This document shows, in pieces, positions 1,380 to 32,059 of a stretch of 32,059 nt of DNA. Location: assembly GCA_001769125.1 (NCBI GenBank), contig MEOG01000043.1, forward strand, positions 1 through 32,059. The letters run 5' to 3'. The notes beneath the pieces are model-generated. The model did no database searches, was not told where the DNA came from, and was given only the letters and a program-made list of their open reading frames with translations. Numbering within the stretch: the first letter of the stretch is position 1; every line of letters begins with the position of its first letter. The stretch is from Bacteroidetes bacterium GWF2_35_48. GTDB taxonomy: Bacteria > Bacteroidota > Bacteroidia > Bacteroidales > GWF2-35-48. The position numbers and the translations under genes are program-made.

Positions 1380-1509
1380 TAAAACATTTTTTTTTTAATC
1401 TAAGCCTTAATATTTGTTGCTTTCATGCACACTTTAATAGGCTCAATAATAGTCAATACATTTCACATCAAACAATATAAATTAAGTAAATAAAATAAAA
1501 TAAAATAAA

Positions 1510-1929
1510 ATGAAAATGAAAATGAAAATATCAGCATTGCTTGCATTTATTGCAATTCTAATTATTCCAACAATACAAAGTTGTAAAAAATATTCCGATG
1601 GACCGGTAATAAGTTTACGTTCCAGAACTGAACGTTTAGCAAATACATGGAAGGTTGAAAATTATAAAAGAAATGGAACAGATTATACTTCCTTGGTTTC
1701 AAACTATACAGAAACTTATACAAAAAGTGGTGATTATTCATATTCATGGGGAAGCCTTACAGGAACAGGTAAATGGGCTTTTCAGAGCAATGATGAAGAA
1801 ATCAAGATAAGTGGAACAGACAACCAAAGTTCTCAGACATTGATTATTCTTAAACTGAAAGAAAATGAGTTTTGGTACTATTATATGGATGGGAATGATA
1901 GAAATGAATTTCACATGATTTCTAATTAG
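1510..1929 (+). CDS. Lipocalin-like lipoprotein
   Basis: The 139-residue protein has a signal sequence ending in a lipobox (IQSC, Cys25 from the first Met). The mature part contains RLANTWKVENYKRNGTDYT and a later GTGKWAFQS...IKISG...LKLKENEFWYYY, the W-x-(V/L) plus short beta-strand pattern of Bacteroidota lipocalin-like lipoproteins. Ligand and role are unknown. The start is ambiguous: Met1, Met3 and Met5 are all possible because the leader and first codons form an A-rich short repeat (MKMKMKI). Its TAG stop codon is also the first three bases of the repeat element that follows. Confidence 0.7.
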   Translation: MKMKMKISALLAFIAILIIPTIQSCKKYSDGPVISLRSRTERLANTWKVENYKRNGTDYTSLVSNYTETYTKSGDYSYSWGSLTGTGKWAFQSNDEEIKISGTDNQSSQTLIILKLKENEFWYYYMDGNDRNEFHMISN

Positions 1930-2120
1930 TGTTTGTCCAGAATGTCCGACCTGCCTGCCGCAGGCAAGTAGCTGCGTTACTCTCGCCCTGAAAAACAGTC
2001 GTTTCGGCTTAGCTCAACGCATCGCATGTACAATAGGACACTCCTGGTTTTCATGTCTTCGAAAGCATTTCGTCAAGCTCAATGTATCACCTTGAACTTG
2101 ACGTTTTCTTATCTGACACT
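1927..2120 (+). mobile_element. MITE-like repeat element, copy A (divergent)
   Basis: This copy begins TAGTGTTTGTCCAGAATGTCCGA, nearly identical to the left end of the copies at 3763 and 31969, and shares the later blocks TAGCTGCGTTACTC, CTCCT(T)GGTTTTCA and CGAAAGC. It differs by an inserted palindrome at 1952-1966 (TGCCTGC c GCAGGCA) and by a 7+4-bp hairpin at 2071-2103 (CGTCAAG ... CTTGACG). The right end is degenerate; I place it near CTGACACT at 2113-2120, though it could extend to about 2152. No ORF inside looks real. The TAG at its left edge is the stop codon of the upstream gene. Confidence 0.6.
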
Positions 2121-2179
2121 GAGTTTTCTTGCAAGCATAAGGACTAATTAGTGATTGCTTATAAATACACGAAATAACA

Positions 2180-2211
2180 AAATTTAAAAAACATTAAATT
2201 TAAAAAACATT
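2180..2211 (+). repeat. Perfect 16-bp tandem duplication in leader
   Basis: AAATTTAAAAAACATT occurs twice head to tail and ends 3 nt before the ATG at 2215. It forms the translation initiation region of the small membrane protein gene that follows. Confidence 0.75.
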
Positions 2212-2214
2212 AAA

Positions 2215-2388
2215 ATGGGCAATTTACTTTATATAGTTGCGGTCTTTCTAATCTTGATTTGGGGAATTAGTTTCTTCGCTTACAATGCGGGAAATTTCAT
2301 ACACTTTTTTCTCTTTATTGCATTAGCAACTTTAATATTCAGAATTGTTCAGGAGAGTAATCTTTTTAAAAATAAATCACTTAAATAA
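2215..2388 (+). CDS. Small lmo0937-family membrane protein (copy 1)
   Basis: This 57-codon gene encodes a protein starting MGNLLYIVAVFLILIWGISF, followed by FAYNAGNFIHFFLFIALATL and a short charged tail ending NKSLK. Two hydrophobic segments (about 3-22 and 29-43) around a conserved F-A-x-N-A-G-x-x-I-H turn are the hallmark of the lmo0937/DUF5670 family of tiny stress-associated membrane proteins. A second, clearly homologous gene lies at 2798. It sits 14 bp before the YtxH gene, so it is probably co-transcribed. Function is unknown. Confidence 0.85.
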   Translation: MGNLLYIVAVFLILIWGISFFAYNAGNFIHFFLFIALATLIFRIVQESNLFKNKSLK

Positions 2389-2402
2389 ATAAATAATAAA
2401 TT

Positions 2403-2639
2403 ATGAGTACACAAAAAGTAGTAATTGGAGCAATAGCTGGTTTAGCTGTTGGAGCATTGTTAGGCGTATTATTTGCACCAAATAAAGGTTCAGATACACG
2501 CAAAAAAATATCTTCAAAGAGTAAAGATATTACGGATGGAATAAAAGAAAAATTTAATGATTTTTTAGACGACATTTCATCGAAATTTGAAAGAGGAAAA
2601 GAGGACGCAAGTGATTTTACAGAAAAGGCGAAGTCCTAA
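2403..2639 (+). CDS. YtxH domain-containing stress protein
   Basis: The 78-residue protein has an N-terminal membrane helix (about 5-25) running into LFAPNKGSDTRKKISSKS, the YtxH signature (LFAPxxGxxTRKK). A charged amphipathic helix to the C-terminus follows. YtxH proteins belong to general stress responses in Firmicutes and are common beside CsbD and lmo0937 genes in Bacteroidota; the biochemical role is unknown. It lies between two lmo0937-type genes. A 10-bp inverted repeat follows the gene at 2679-2716. Confidence 0.85.
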   Translation: MSTQKVVIGAIAGLAVGALLGVLFAPNKGSDTRKKISSKSKDITDGIKEKFNDFLDDISSKFERGKEDASDFTEKAKS

Positions 2640-2678
2640 TTTTTTAAAAACAATCAAGGCAATTTCAGCTTTGAATCA

Positions 2679-2716
2679 GCTTCAGCAATACATAATGTTG
2701 CATGTGTTGCTGAAGC
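2679..2716. terminator. Strong hairpin between stress genes
   Basis: GCTTCAGCAA (2679-2688) and TTGCTGAAGC (2707-2716) form a perfect 10-bp stem. The 18-nt loop can itself fold (ACAT...ATGT). There is no T tract, so it may be an mRNA stabiliser or partial terminator rather than a classical terminator. Confidence 0.5.
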
Positions 2717-2797
2717 AATTGATTGATAAAAATAAAAAATAAGTAAATAACAAATACAAAATCTTAATATCATTCGTCAATTAAAAATTAATAAAAA

Positions 2798-2953
2798 ATG
2801 ACACAGATTTTATATGTTATAGCGGTATTATTAATAATCGCATGGCTCATCGGTTTTTTCGCTTTTAATGCAGGTAAGATGATACATGTCCTTCTTGTTA
2901 TTGCATTTATCGCAGTATTGCTTCGTGTAATTAGAGGGAAAAAAATATTTTAA
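2798..2953 (+). CDS. Small lmo0937-family membrane protein (copy 2)
   Basis: This 51-codon gene encodes a protein starting MTQILYVIAVLLIIAWLIGF, followed by FAFNAGKMIHVLLVIAFIAVLL and RVIRGKKIF. It has the same two-helix architecture and F-A-x-N-A-G-x-x-I-H turn as the protein at 2215, so the two are paralogues about 0.6 kb apart. The tail is basic. The next gene starts 18 bp downstream. Family lmo0937/DUF5670; function unknown, with general-stress association known from other bacteria. Confidence 0.85.
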   Translation: MTQILYVIAVLLIIAWLIGFFAFNAGKMIHVLLVIAFIAVLLRVIRGKKIF

Positions 2954-2971
2954 ATTTTATATAAAATAAGT

Positions 2972-3337
2972 ATGAAAATTTTAAAAAAAAATAAACTATA
3001 TTTAACAGGAGCATTGATTTTATTATTTCTTTATCCTCTTAAATCAAATGCACAAAGTAACGATTCAACTATTTCTGCTTCAACAACGTTCAATGTATCT
3101 GTTCCTCCTGAAACAGAAACAGAAATAGAAAGAAACAGAATCAAAGCACAAATTTTACTCATTCGCTTGGATGAAATCAATGCAAGGGATAAATCAGAAA
3201 TGAATTTTGCAGATAAAAGAAAAATGCGAAAAGAAGTACGTTCAATCAGATGGGAGTTAAATAGAATTGGCGGTGGCGTATATATTTCAGCAGGAGCAAT
3301 TATAATAATAGTAATTCTGTTGGTCATTTTCTTGTAA
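2972..3337 (+). CDS. Exported protein with C-terminal membrane anchor, unknown
   Basis: The 121-residue protein has a cleavable signal peptide (1-27, SNA before Gln). A Ser/Thr/Glu-rich linker follows, then a charged helical segment with many Arg, Lys and Glu (about 50-98), and a very hydrophobic C-terminal helix (about 103-121, rich in Ile and Val). It would be periplasmic and tethered by its C-terminus. I do not recognise a family. Its position 18 bp after the lmo0937-type gene, inside a stress/envelope cluster, suggests a related role. Confidence 0.7.
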   Translation: MKILKKNKLYLTGALILLFLYPLKSNAQSNDSTISASTTFNVSVPPETETEIERNRIKAQILLIRLDEINARDKSEMNFADKRKMRKEVRSIRWELNRIGGGVYISAGAIIIIVILLVIFL

Positions 3338-3423
3338 AATAATTAACAAATATAACCAATAAACTATTTATTAACCGCCTATAGTTTTCACAGAAATTAA
3401 TTCAAAAATAACATTACGAACAA

Positions 3424-3765
3424 ATGGAAAAAGAAATACCGATATTAAAAACGCTGCTTGAAAAAGCATCTGATTATGGAAAAACAAGTTATGAATTAGT
3501 AAAACTTAAAGCTCTTGATAAAGCGTCCGGCATAATTTCTTCATATATTATGAATACAGTCGTTTTTATGCTTCTTGGATTAGTTTTACTTTTTTTTAGT
3601 TTCGGAATTGCAATTTGGCTGGGAGATATTCTTGGCAAACTATTTTATGGATTTTTTGCAGTTACTTCGTTTTATGCGCTTGTAGCAATTGTTTTGCATT
3701 TTATATTTCATAAAATAATTAAAAAAAGGATACGCAATTCAATTATTAAAAATGCACTTAAATAG
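3424..3765 (+). CDS. Holin-like (phage_holin_3_6/DUF1469) membrane protein
   Basis: The 113-residue protein has a charged N-terminal helix (1-35, with EKASDYGKTSYELVKLKALDK), two membrane helices (about 42-62 and 72-92) and a basic C-terminal tail (HKIIKKRIRN). This is the layout of the phage-holin-superfamily DUF1469 proteins, which in Bacteroidota are chromosomal and found with YtxH and CsbD-type proteins rather than in prophages. No phage gene is nearby. The TAG stop codon is the left end of the repeat element that follows. Confidence 0.7.
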   Translation: MEKEIPILKTLLEKASDYGKTSYELVKLKALDKASGIISSYIMNTVVFMLLGLVLLFFSFGIAIWLGDILGKLFYGFFAVTSFYALVAIVLHFIFHKIIKKRIRNSIIKNALK

Positions 3766-3965
3766 TGTTTGTCCATAATGTCCGAGCATAGCACCAGCTG
3801 GCTCAAACAACCACCGGTTGTTTGCCCTGTTACTCTTGTGTTGAAAACAGTCATTTACAAAAGTAAACTCCTTGGTTTTCAACACTGCGAAAGCCCTGCC
3901 TACCGGCAAGGCAGGCTTGCTCTCGAACATTCTGAACCAAACACTGACTGTATGGACAGACACTA
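3763..3965 (+). mobile_element. MITE-like element, copy B (complete, TA ends)
   Basis: The 203-bp element has 15-bp terminal inverted repeats: TAGTGTTTGTCCATA at 3763-3777 and TATGGACAGACACTA at 3951-3965 (14 of 15 pair). The outer TA on each side could be a target duplication as in IS630/Tc1-type elements. Inside are three perfect hairpins: CAAACAACC/GGTTGTTTG (3804-3824), GTGTTGAAAAC/GTTTTCAACAC (3838-3885, with a nested TTTAC/GTAAA) and CCTGCCT/AGGCAGG (3895-3915). No transposase or convincing ORF is inside. The left TAG is the stop codon of the upstream gene. A second TAGTGTTTG follows at 3968. Confidence 0.75.
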
Positions 3966-4014
3966 AATAGTGTTTGAAGCACTGATTTTATGAACAACTC
4001 TTAAATAATATTTT

Positions 4015-4407
4015 ATGCAAAATATAACTTCTCATACTGATTTAAAAACAGCAATACAATTACTGGAAATTGAGCAAAAATTAAAAGAACAGATTTTAAA
4101 AGATCAACTTTACCTGACTGTTGAAAGTCTTAAACCACATAATTTGCTGAAGAGTGCGTTGAAAGATGTTATTTCAACACCGGATAATACACATAATCTA
4201 TTTGATAGAATAATAGGTTCTGCTTCGGGTTTTTTTGCAAAAAAAATTGTAGTTGGGGGGTCTGAAAATATATTCAGAAAACTAATCGGATATGCAATGC
4301 AGTATGGTGTTAAAAATTATGTTACGAATCATACGGAAACAATAAAATCAGTTGCTCAATTTATATTTCAATTTTTCACAAAAAATAAAAATTCTGAAAA
4401 TCAATGA
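4015..4407 (+). CDS. Conserved hypothetical protein upstream of transporter
   Basis: The 130-residue protein has no signal peptide. It begins with a charged helical segment (about 10-50, IQLLEIEQKLKEQ), then a Gly/Ala-rich region (about 66-82, DRIIGSASGFFAKKIVVGG) and amphipathic helices to the end. No catalytic motif is visible. The family looks like a small Bacteroidota-specific protein that may lie on the membrane. Its last codons overlap the start of the AI-2E family gene by 4 nt (ATGA), so the two are translationally coupled. Confidence 0.75.
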   Translation: MQNITSHTDLKTAIQLLEIEQKLKEQILKDQLYLTVESLKPHNLLKSALKDVISTPDNTHNLFDRIIGSASGFFAKKIVVGGSENIFRKLIGYAMQYGVKNYVTNHTETIKSVAQFIFQFFTKNKNSENQ

Positions 4408-5522
4408 TTATTAAAGCAAATACAATCCCATTTTATTTAAAAGCAGTTTTGTTTCTCGTAGGAATTTATTTCTTAATAACAATGCTGCAAATTGCACGTG
4501 AGATTATTGTTCCTCTCGTGTTTGCTATTATTATAGCTGTTGTCCTTCACCCGGTAATAAATTATTTTGTAAAAAAGAAAATTAACAGGATATTAGCTAT
4601 TGTAATAGTTTTATTACTCACATTTATAATCATTATAGGAATAGGTTCTCTTATTTTTTCACAGGCAATCCGGTTCAGTGAATCATGGCCTGTTCTTATT
4701 GATAAATTCACAGCTATACTTAACCAAACTGTAACCTGGGCCTCCAGACACTTTGAAGTAAACCCACAAATTATTCAACAATGGATTGCTTCTATAAAAA
4801 GCAATCTTCTTAATTCAAGCAGTTCCGCACTGGGACAAACAATTATGTCTATAAGCAGTGGAATAATGGCTTTATTTTTAGTTCCTGTTTATGTTTTCAT
4901 GATTCTTTTTTATGAACCTATTATTCTCGTTTTTATTAACAGACTTTTTGCATCAAGCAATCAAAGTAAAGTAGCAGAAATTGTTCTGCAAATTAAAAAT
5001 GTTATTCAACGTTACCTAATAGGTTTAGTAATTGAATTTGTAATTGTAGCAATTTTAAATTCCGTTGCACTATTAATACTTGGAATTGATTATGCTATAC
5101 TACTCGGGATTCTCGGAGCATTGCTTAACCTGATTCCATATATCGGAGGAATGATCGGAGTAGCACTTCCTATGCTGGTTGCCTTTGCGACTAAATCAAC
5201 TGCTTGGTATGCACTTTATGTTCTGATCTTTTATTTTATTATTCAACTTATAGACAACAACTATATCATCCCAAAAATTGTCGCTTCTAAAGTAAAAATC
5301 AATGCCCTTTTTTCAATTATTGTTGTTATAGCTGGAAATGCTTTGTGGGGTGTCCCGGGAATGTTTCTTTCTTTACCAGTACTTGCAATTATAAAATTAA
5401 TTTTCGATCATATAGAGCCATTGAAACCATGGGGATTTTTATTAGGAGACACCATGCCTCCTATAATAAAAATAAAAATAAAACCCATCAACCTTATTCG
5501 GAGAAAAAAAGTAATTATATAG
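4404..5522 (+). CDS. AI-2E family transporter (PerM-like permease)
   Basis: This is a 372-residue polytopic membrane protein with an N-terminal pair of helices (about 12-60), a third near 65-85, a soluble middle section (about 90-150) and four or more helices to residue 350. The segment ending NALWGVPGMFLSLPVLAIIK and the loop QLIDNNYIIPKIVASKVKIN are characteristic of the AI-2E/UPF0118 (YdiK, PerM, TqsA) family. Family members export various small molecules; the substrate here cannot be read from sequence, and autoinducer transport should not be assumed. Length is normal. It overlaps the previous gene by 4 nt. Confidence 0.9.
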   Translation: MIIKANTIPFYLKAVLFLVGIYFLITMLQIAREIIVPLVFAIIIAVVLHPVINYFVKKKINRILAIVIVLLLTFIIIIGIGSLIFSQAIRFSESWPVLIDKFTAILNQTVTWASRHFEVNPQIIQQWIASIKSNLLNSSSSALGQTIMSISSGIMALFLVPVYVFMILFYEPIILVFINRLFASSNQSKVAEIVLQIKNVIQRYLIGLVIEFVIVAILNSVALLILGIDYAILLGILGALLNLIPYIGGMIGVALPMLVAFATKSTAWYALYVLIFYFIIQLIDNNYIIPKIVASKVKINALFSIIVVIAGNALWGVPGMFLSLPVLAIIKLIFDHIEPLKPWGFLLGDTMPPIIKIKIKPINLIRRKKVII

Positions 5523-11520: not shown

Positions 11521-11565
11521 TAGTATTTGCAAAATAACCACTTTTCATGCTGACACTAAGTAGTA
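11521..11565 (+). repeat. Short degenerate relative of the TAGTGTTTG element
   Basis: TAGTATTTGC at 11521-11530 and CTGACACTAAGTAG at 11550-11563 resemble the left and right ends of the MITE-like elements with almost no interior. The right-hand block (TTTTC, then CTGACACTAAGTA) recurs near 11840-11860 and, weakly, at 2105-2123. Confidence 0.35.
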
Positions 11566-30709: not shown

Positions 30710-30768
30710 CATGAACAAGCAAAATGAGCAGTAGGATTATTTTGCAAATTTTCAATCACAATTATTTT

Positions 30769-31971
30769 ATGAGTATATTAAAAATATGTATCATTTTTAT
30801 ATTTGATTTTCTTTTATTGATATTAGGAGGAATCCTGATTTTAACATCCTGCAAACACGAGCCGCTTGAAAAAGATTACGACCTTTCTCCAATGCTGCGT
30901 CTTATTGAGGATGTATCTTATGTTTCGTCGGATACAACATTGCAAATCGGCACTCCTTTTTCCATAGAAATACAGGCATCAGGAAATACAATTTTCAATA
31001 AAAATATTACCCGTTTTTCAATCTGGAAAATTAATGAAACAGACTCATCCCTCGCATTTGATTCAACATTGTCGTCTGTAAAATTAAATTCCATCCGACT
31101 TTTTCAATGCAGAACCACATCAGGCAGCGAGAAATGGCGCTTTGAAATAATCGATCAGGATGGCCGGAAAAAAGATACATCTTTTACGATTACGGCTGTC
31201 AACAATCCTCCAAACATTAGTTTTATTTCAGGAAATAATTATACTGTTAATGGCTCAACTATTAATTTCTCGTCACAATTTAAGGTTGGAATTAACGCGA
31301 ACATAAATGCTATGTCAGGTGGTTATCTGAAACAATTTAATGTATATCGCACTATAAATAATCTGACGACTGATATTTTTGATACAATAATAAATTCAGT
31401 TTCATTCACAGATACCCGTTTTTACACGACATCCAATCAAGTGGCTACAGAAAAGTGGTATTTCAAAATAACAGATAACAGGGGTGAATCAAAAACAATT
31501 ATTCTTACAATTTTTACTGCTCAGATAACACCCCTGAATTGTGAATTTTTTGGCGTTTTGTATAATTCAATCGGCCCTTTTGCTAATTCATGGGACTTGA
31601 TTTCTGATGCTTCAATCCTCCTAACTGCACCCGATTCGAGCGCGGATATGCAAAACACAACTACCGCAACATCCTATGCTCCTTATTATTTTTTTAATTC
31701 GTGGAGGGCTCTAAATACAACAAGATTTAAAAGATTAAATTATTTCAGTTATGAAAATGCAATCATGGAAGATGCCGTGGATGCTTATTCTGGTACAACT
31801 ATCTCTCAACCTTCTTCTTATGCAAATACTGTATCTCCGGGTATTATGTACGTGGCAAAACTTCGCGGCAAAAATAATTATATAATCATTCGTGTAAATA
31901 ATGTAATCTACACCGATTCAGACAGCCTCGACCGTATTGAATTCAGTTACAAAAAAGCTTGTTCTAAATAG
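30769..31971 (+). CDS. Large lipoprotein of unknown function
   Basis: I prefer the ATG at 30769, which gives a 28-residue lipoprotein signal ending ILTSC (Cys28); an earlier in-frame ATG at 30724 would add 15 residues. The mature protein is about 370 residues, beta-rich, with two repeats resembling Ig-like domains: a first SIWKINETDSSLAFDS...KWRFEIIDQDGRKKD and a second FNVYRTINNLTTDIFDT...KWYFKITDNRGESKT. The repeats share (E)KW(R/Y)F(E/K)I-x-D-x-x-G, so they are internal duplicates. The C-terminal third may be a binding domain. No family recognised. Its TAG stop is the left end of a repeat element. Confidence 0.8.
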   Translation: MSILKICIIFIFDFLLLILGGILILTSCKHEPLEKDYDLSPMLRLIEDVSYVSSDTTLQIGTPFSIEIQASGNTIFNKNITRFSIWKINETDSSLAFDSTLSSVKLNSIRLFQCRTTSGSEKWRFEIIDQDGRKKDTSFTITAVNNPPNISFISGNNYTVNGSTINFSSQFKVGINANINAMSGGYLKQFNVYRTINNLTTDIFDTIINSVSFTDTRFYTTSNQVATEKWYFKITDNRGESKTIILTIFTAQITPLNCEFFGVLYNSIGPFANSWDLISDASILLTAPDSSADMQNTTTATSYAPYYFFNSWRALNTTRFKRLNYFSYENAIMEDAVDAYSGTTISQPSSYANTVSPGIMYVAKLRGKNNYIIIRVNNVIYTDSDSLDRIEFSYKKACSK

Positions 31972-32059
31972 TGTTTGTCCATAATGTCCGATAGCTGCGT
32001 TACTCTTGTGTTGAAAACAGTCATTTACAAAAGTAAACTCCTTGGTTTTCAACACTGCG
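31969..32059 (+). mobile_element. MITE-like repeat element, copy C (cut by window end)
   Basis: The first 23 bases match the left end at 3763, then TAGCTGC replaces the first hairpin, and 31999-32059 is identical to 3829-3889 over 61 bp, including the GTGTTGAAAAC/GTTTTCAACAC stem (32008-32018 with 32045-32055). The right end is beyond the window. The TAG forms the stop codon of the preceding gene. Confidence 0.75.

Follow-up and report, generated by a model that had tools for sequence, protein, structure and literature searches.

The window analysed here is the entire contig C43 (32,059 bases) of genome G000 (5.98 Mb, 142 contigs), Bacteroidetes bacterium GWF2_35_48. It carries three copies (A, B and C) of a repeat, each beginning at the stop codon of an open reading frame, and one end of a second repeat family. 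The repeats are called MITEs on grounds given below. The features concerned are the following.

1510-1929 (+): ORF of 139 amino acids; copy A opens with its stop codon, TAG
1923-1928 (+): left target hexamer of copy A, TAATTA; the right copy of the hexamer lies at 2145-2150
1927-2146 (+): MITE copy A (family 1), whose left end coincides with the stop of the 139-aa ORF 1510-1929 and whose right end, AAGGACTA, is diverged
3424-3765 (+): ORF of 113 amino acids, matching Pfam Phage_holin_3_6 at 30.8 bits; it ends at the TAG of copy B
3759-3764 (+): left target hexamer of copy B, TAAATA; the right copy of the hexamer lies at 3964-3969
3763-3965 (+): MITE copy B, 203 bp, the locus of the original prediction
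3763-3787 (+): left arm of copy B, made up of the element end and the inner stem part
3838-3885 (+): core hairpin of copy B, GTGTTGAAAAC..GTTTTCAACAC, with inner stem TTTAC/GTAAA; its arms covary among copies
3919-3945 (+): inner inverted copy of the left arm in copy B, the pairing partner of the left end in the consensus; family 2 is arranged likewise
3946-3965 (+): outer right end of copy B, GACTGTATGGACAGACACTA, a sequence shared exactly with the right ends of contig-edge IS copies
11542-11558 (-): family-2 MITE end with 1 mismatch, adjoining the hexamer TAAGTA
30724-31971 (+): ORF of 415 amino acids; it ends at the TAG of copy C
31969-32059 (+): MITE copy C, cut by the contig end

There are exactly three perfect matches to TAGTGTTTGTCC in the window, all on the plus strand (at 1927, 3763 and 31969), and ten matches when up to two mismatches are allowed, against 2.17 expected from shuffles. 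The original prediction held that the TAG opening each copy is the stop codon of the gene upstream, and this is correct for all three, TAG being the last codon of the ORFs of 139, 113 and 415 amino acids. Pfam searches of the first and the last of these ORFs gave no match. The pairing claimed for the outermost 15 bases of copy B (14 of 15) is also found. The bounding TA described for that copy is present, but it is the inner part of a larger site: the full flank is the hexamer TAAATA on both sides, and the target is TANNTA. Beyond the prediction, the analysis brought out the polarity of the ends, the IS source of the repeats, a second family and an inner pairing partner of the left end.

In G000 the element is short, non-coding, dispersed and present in many copies, with a commonest length of 146 bp, and the left-end 12-mer has 43 exact copies against 2 for the reversed pattern. 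Small palindromes (e.g. CCTGCCTACCGGCAAGGCAGG or TTTCGACAAGCTCAA) sit at fixed points of some copies, including window positions 3895-3915, and their insertion lengthens 146-bp elements, for example to 167 bp. Short antisense frames such as ATGACTGTTTTC... were rejected as coding because the frame varies among copies when the sequences are read by eye. A plasmid search for the element gave no match, and a 23-mer had no exact match in viral contigs.

A search with the right end led to a complete IS of 1,646 bp in the same genome (C133:6885-8530). It has the same kind of ends as the MITEs, is flanked by TAATTA on both sides and encodes a transposase of 443 amino acids. This protein scores 332 bits against NCBIfam NF033593 (ISNCY_1; cut-off 325), matches DDE_Tnp_1 and DDE_Tnp_1_6 only in Pfam, and matches the IS5/IS1182 models weakly and far below their cut-offs. 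A scan of species genomes for relatives of the transposase yielded 36 loci, whose records are mostly assigned to Bacteroidota or its orders, with a few from Ignavibacteriales, Spirochaetia, Neomarinimicrobiota and Oscillospiraceae. A TAG-starting end like TAGTGTCTGTCC (at most 3 mismatches) lies near the gene in 33 of the 35 relatives' loci inspected besides L121. Because the IS and the repeats have their ends in common, and the ends of the relatives are alike, the repeats are, as judged from sequence, MITEs of an ISNCY-type IS, that is, its non-autonomous derivatives. Their movement in trans by the 443-aa DDE transposase, acting on the common TAGTGTYTGTCC ends, is very probable.

Fifteen inspected contig ends of G000 lie inside copies of the IS (C24, C39, C45, C57, C72, C77, C87, C89, C100, C101, C105, C125, C134, C135 and C137), so the assembly has been broken by this IS family and the IS copy number is undercounted. 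The second MITE family has ends TAGTGTYNGCAAGAAAA and is larger than the first, with 154 ends in G000 (pattern search with at most 1 mismatch) against 0 for the reversed control. Tip, target, core hairpin and inner-copy architecture are common to both families, and the terminal sequence differs. Elements also occur in tandem (L284, L242, L230, L272, L275 and L278 in G046; L008/L009 in G000), mostly 2 or 3 bases apart, and look as if they had re-inserted in their own target copy.

The target of the elements is TANNTA, mostly in the form YTANNTAR. The IS ends at contig edges read CACTA-NNTA in all 15 printed cases. Among 72 MITE insertions with both flanks (L006, L010 and L029 left out), the middle NN is the same on both sides in 58, and 38 of these 58 have TA as both flanking pairs. 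A target duplication is thus present, comprising either 2 bp (NN) or 4 bp (ANNT). The TAGTGTTT run of the left end recurs immediately behind the right target copy in L007, L012 (window 3968-3976), L016, L020 and L034. A genome-wide excess of TAGTGTTT was sought in a sample of G000 and none was found (18 in 400 kb against 71 of TAATGTTT); remnants of old insertions as a general source of stop codons were rejected on this basis.

The number of copies at stop codons is far above chance, and mostly the same end of the element faces the gene. Left ends abut a stop in 37 of 100 cases and right ends in 5 of 76 when both MITE families are taken together (Fisher p = 1.8e-6). The count drew on 96 family-1 ends and 128 family-2 ends (the 154 mentioned above come from a slightly different pattern and were not all fetched); 28 further ends have no assignable side, and 5 of those lie at stops. 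As a null, oriented non-coding TANNTA sites were collected from 20 stretches of 20 kb each of G000 (GC 0.35, coding density 0.90), with genes called by a simple longest-ORF rule. A stop is touched by 31 of the 755 sites (19 + 12), and by 10 of 154 in the form YTANNTAR. The left ends exceed both nulls (p = 6e-20 and 1.4e-9), and the preference for stops over random placement that was originally proposed is therefore upheld. The right ends are at chance level (p = 0.37 and 1.0) and so serve as an internal control. The asymmetry is seen in each register: the stop lies in the last positions of the hexamer at 23 of 100 left and 5 of 76 right ends, and within -2..+2 at 14 of 100 left and 0 of 76 right ends. 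Further from the gene the polarity is absent, as 15 left and 13 right ends lie 3-100 bp behind a stop (p = 0.84). Since the copies are related, none of these counts are independent.

Insertion at stops is nevertheless a preference and not a rule for the copies. Only 14 of the 43 exact left-end 12-mers in G000 end an ORF of at least 93 amino acids; most copies do lie away from stops, the outcome named in advance as speaking against the idea, but the enrichment stands. A curated set of 38 insertions consists of 36 of the 43 exact copies and 2 variants, leaving out L008 and L009 (a tandem pair), L013 (cut), L027, L032, L037 and L039. In the register TANN-TAR stops are found at 14 left and 2 right ends in the printed orientation; with the inverted copy L035 reassigned, the tally by the element's own sides is 13 left to 3 right.

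A difference between the two halves of the core target was rejected as the cause of this polarity, because the half-sites are nearly equal and both are strict away from stops, with A at outward position 4 in 95% and 94% of cases. At stops, the A at this position on the gene side is absent in 7 of 23 cases, against 3 of 63 among the other left ends (p = 0.003).

The proteins appear to be unharmed by the insertions. Joining the flanks of the 13 ordinary stop cases at left ends reconstructs an empty site that is TAA in 6 of them, TAG in 5 and unclear in 2 (AAG in L022; AAA in L031, probably through a one-base deletion). Where the site is readable, the insertion has thus left the protein as it was. 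The model in which insertion turns a TAA stop into TAG fits the 6 TAA sites but not the 5 TAG sites. At copy B the joined site is AAA TAG, and the empty site of copy A (1927) is likewise already TAG. Nor is simple conversion of TAA a sufficient description of the 37 left-end stop cases, because 14 of them have the stop within -2..+2 of the element; in the 11 at +1 the element comes just after the gene's own, retained stop.

The part of the prediction that saw in the repeat a mobile inverted-repeat element sparing the gene is supported. The gene at L031 runs past the edge of the locus and encodes at least 657 amino acids. Its orthologue in G001, a genome of the same genus, is 73% identical, ends in TAA and is followed by 120 bases free of the element. 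For the 113-aa gene of the window, an orthologue was sought in three genomes and no match was obtained. The 377-aa gene of L017 has a 45% relative in G048 that ends in TGA, and no relative of it was found in G001.

The same kind of element is present in three other genomes, with 27 exact 12-mers in G046, 26 in G052 and 6 in G051. In G046 the 12-mer marks the opposite end of the element, and sides were assigned by the core. Counting only the register TANN-TAR and ORFs of at least 74 amino acids, G046, G052 and G051 have 6, 3 and 1 stop cases at left ends and 1, 1 and 0 at right ends, which sums to 10 left and 2 right (p = 0.04). The right-end case in G046 (L285, 412 amino acids) yields no stop codon when its empty site is read, and the one in G052 (L255) is a short frame of 74 amino acids. 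At L242 and L272 a second element forms the flank, and their empty sites are uninformative. A 12-mer in G013 (L237) ends an ORF of 422 amino acids without a recognisable core and was not counted.

The autonomous IS copies lean the same way, with 7 of 34 left ends and 1 of 28 right ends at stops (p = 0.06). This count covers 33 of the 36 transposase loci and the IS ends of G000, and an end was scored as not at a stop if what lies upstream of it is an open frame or no gene at all. The left-end rate is higher for the MITEs (37 of 100) than for the IS (7 of 34; p = 0.09). When everything is pooled there are 54 left and 8 right cases, for which p = 2e-9 is overstated because the copies are related.

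The hairpin within the element is real. The RNA fold of copy B (3763-3965) has z = -7.1 against shuffles, and a consensus fold of 46 copies from four genomes, computed on the strand antisense to the left-hand gene, has 40 pairs, 18 of them with at least two Watson-Crick types; 1,790 of 1,837 cells are paired, G-U included. The alignment contains 46 of 49 extracted copies (without L003, L006 and G052_L253, and with L035 turned round). In the family-1 consensus the left end pairs with the inner inverted copy of itself and not with the right terminus; in the minimum-energy fold of copy B alone, the two termini pair. Family-2 ends have the form TAGTG-NNN-GCAAGAAAA, and in 34 of 45 elements the left end and the inner copy have the same NNN, compared with a mean of 9.4 and a maximum of 23 in 2,000 shuffles. 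The match is 15 of 23 once elements identical over 60 bases are removed. The outer right end of this family does not follow the variable bases of the left end.

Among the family-1 copies in their extracted orientation, 48 of 49 have the lower free energy on the antisense strand, with the inverted copy L035 as the exception; in family 2 this holds for 42 of 45 copies. Against dinucleotide shuffles the antisense strand is better in 18 of 24 copies, with a mean z of -6.1 compared with -4.9 for the sense strand, and copy B is reversed (sense -7.1, antisense -6.4). Selection for the antisense strand, as a strong claim, was rejected, because much of the energy gap is due to base composition and copy B shows the opposite. 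The role of the hairpin probably lies with the element and not with the gene. An Rfam scan of five loci gave three sub-threshold matches, none of them inside the element.

The pattern as a whole hints at an unusual, polar and gene-sparing mode of insertion. The explanation that we consider best, and would give an even chance, is that IS-derived MITEs enter TANNTA sites with a polarity that arises mainly from targeting and not from a recruited function of the hairpin. The ISNCY-type transposase would move the MITEs in trans by their ends into the palindromic TANNTA, of which a TAA or TAG stop can be part, so that an insertion there would spare the protein. The polarity would come mainly from a transposition complex that chooses, or orients itself on, targets at the 3' ends of genes; loss of disruptive insertions would add to the pattern, and the hairpin would need no recruited function in the mRNA. 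Three observations suggest that insertion itself is polar: the autonomous IS copies, in a small sample, lean the same way; polarity is absent 3-100 bp behind stops, where a hairpin in the 3' UTR should work equally well; and the gene-side half-site is relaxed, as if a cue other than the palindrome had chosen the site. The relaxed base is a wobble position and may also reflect later drift. Against targeting stand the small IS sample (p = 0.06) and the higher left-end rate of the MITEs (p = 0.09), which selection acting on MITEs predicts.

In its specific form, to which we hold only tentatively and at somewhat less than even confidence, transposase and MITEs would choose stops with polarity, placing the left end on the gene side of a TAA or TAG, with one good half-site being enough. 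What is read would then be the end of a gene instead of a palindrome, perhaps through the termination of transcription or translation. We know of no mechanism by which a DDE transposase senses a stop codon with polarity.

Selection might produce the same distribution from unbiased TANNTA insertion if copies with the left end at a stop were kept because a hairpin read in one fixed direction directly after the terminating ribosome benefits the upstream mRNA, or damages it least (stability, processing). The excess of MITEs over IS at left ends points in this direction, as does the strong covarying fold, which beats shuffles on the mRNA-sense strand too (24 copies, and copy B in particular), and effects of ERIC elements on mRNA are described as depending on orientation (PMC2229807, PMC3049150). 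The evenness of left and right ends 3-100 bp behind stops is difficult to reconcile with it, however, and so are the leaning of the autonomous IS copies and a fold whose mean z somewhat favours the strand antisense to the gene (lower in 18 of 24 copies) over the mRNA strand. Selection of this kind is a possible but somewhat unlikely cause of the polarity.

Random insertion at TANNTA followed by purging of disruptive copies, with the stop cases as leftovers in a gene-dense genome, is improbable as a full account. A coding density of 0.90 and the existence of TANNTA sites at stops (31 of 755) are in keeping with it, and the right ends (5 of 76) fit it well. For the left ends it is strongly disfavoured, since they exceed both nulls so widely, and a symmetric target alone cannot yield a left-right polarity.

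That the elements are transcription terminators spread by selection is very unlikely. The hairpins do sit directly behind stop codons, and the original prediction had proposed such a role, but a scan of 1500-4500 for intrinsic terminators (GC-rich stem and T run) found none inside 1927-2146 or 3763-3965, and the L031 gene has a stem with a T run downstream of the element. Integron-like cassettes, in which gene and hairpin are gained together, are extremely improbable: attC sites resemble the element in having a hairpin directly behind the stop codon in a fixed orientation, but the ends here are the IS ends TAGTG...CACTA and not an attC core site, the copies are scattered over contigs, and the orthologue of the L031 gene lacks the element.

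A repeat that ends a gene is already known, and the polarity is the surprising feature. Pneumococcal BOX repeats, the precedent, supply the stop of 36 annotated CDSs, without strong evidence of truncation relative to orthologues, and pneumococcal repeats are enriched between convergent genes (sections on repeats in PMC3049150). The same sections describe short interspersed repeats with partly IS-like ends, which is similar to the elements here, but BOX belongs to another phylum and is built of boxA, boxB and boxC modules (compared by description), and these sections of PMC3049150 report no left-right polarity at stops. The MITEs RUP, Correia and ERIC, as far as described in PMC2229807, are also less than about 200 bp long with TA-containing ends and terminal inverted repeats, and RUP is moved in trans by a resident IS, the mode proposed here. 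Compared with that description, the MITEs here differ in targeting TANNTA, in concentrating at stops with one end and in having a consensus fold in which an inner copy is the partner of the left end.

The transposase passes the cut-off of the ISNCY model NF033593, and nearly all of its inspected relatives have TAG-starting ends. The IS1202 family, once filed under ISNCY, is similar in size (1.5 kb, 441-457 amino acids) and inserts in a fixed orientation beside dif/pdif sites (PMC10132070). That family is modelled on TnsB and has a 5-bp target duplication beside XerC sites (PMC10132070); the transposase here matches DDE_Tnp_1 and weakly IS5/IS1182, and the target is TANNTA. Searches of the open-access literature turned up no account of repeats that meet stop codons with a left-right polarity, and none in which this ISNCY group favours stop codons or has MITE derivatives.

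Many bacterial IS stay out of genes through selection only. If the targeting interpretation is true, an element that inserts at stop codons and turns one particular end to the gene would have a mechanism for harmless spread, and its choice of gene-sparing targets would read gene ends instead of a DNA palindrome. This would also explain the puzzling TAG stops found at the borders of repeats in genomes of this kind. The polarity is directly testable because the opposite end of the element is an internal control, and the covarying hairpin, whose core is kept while the termini differ between the families, offers a handle on the role of the MITE interior.
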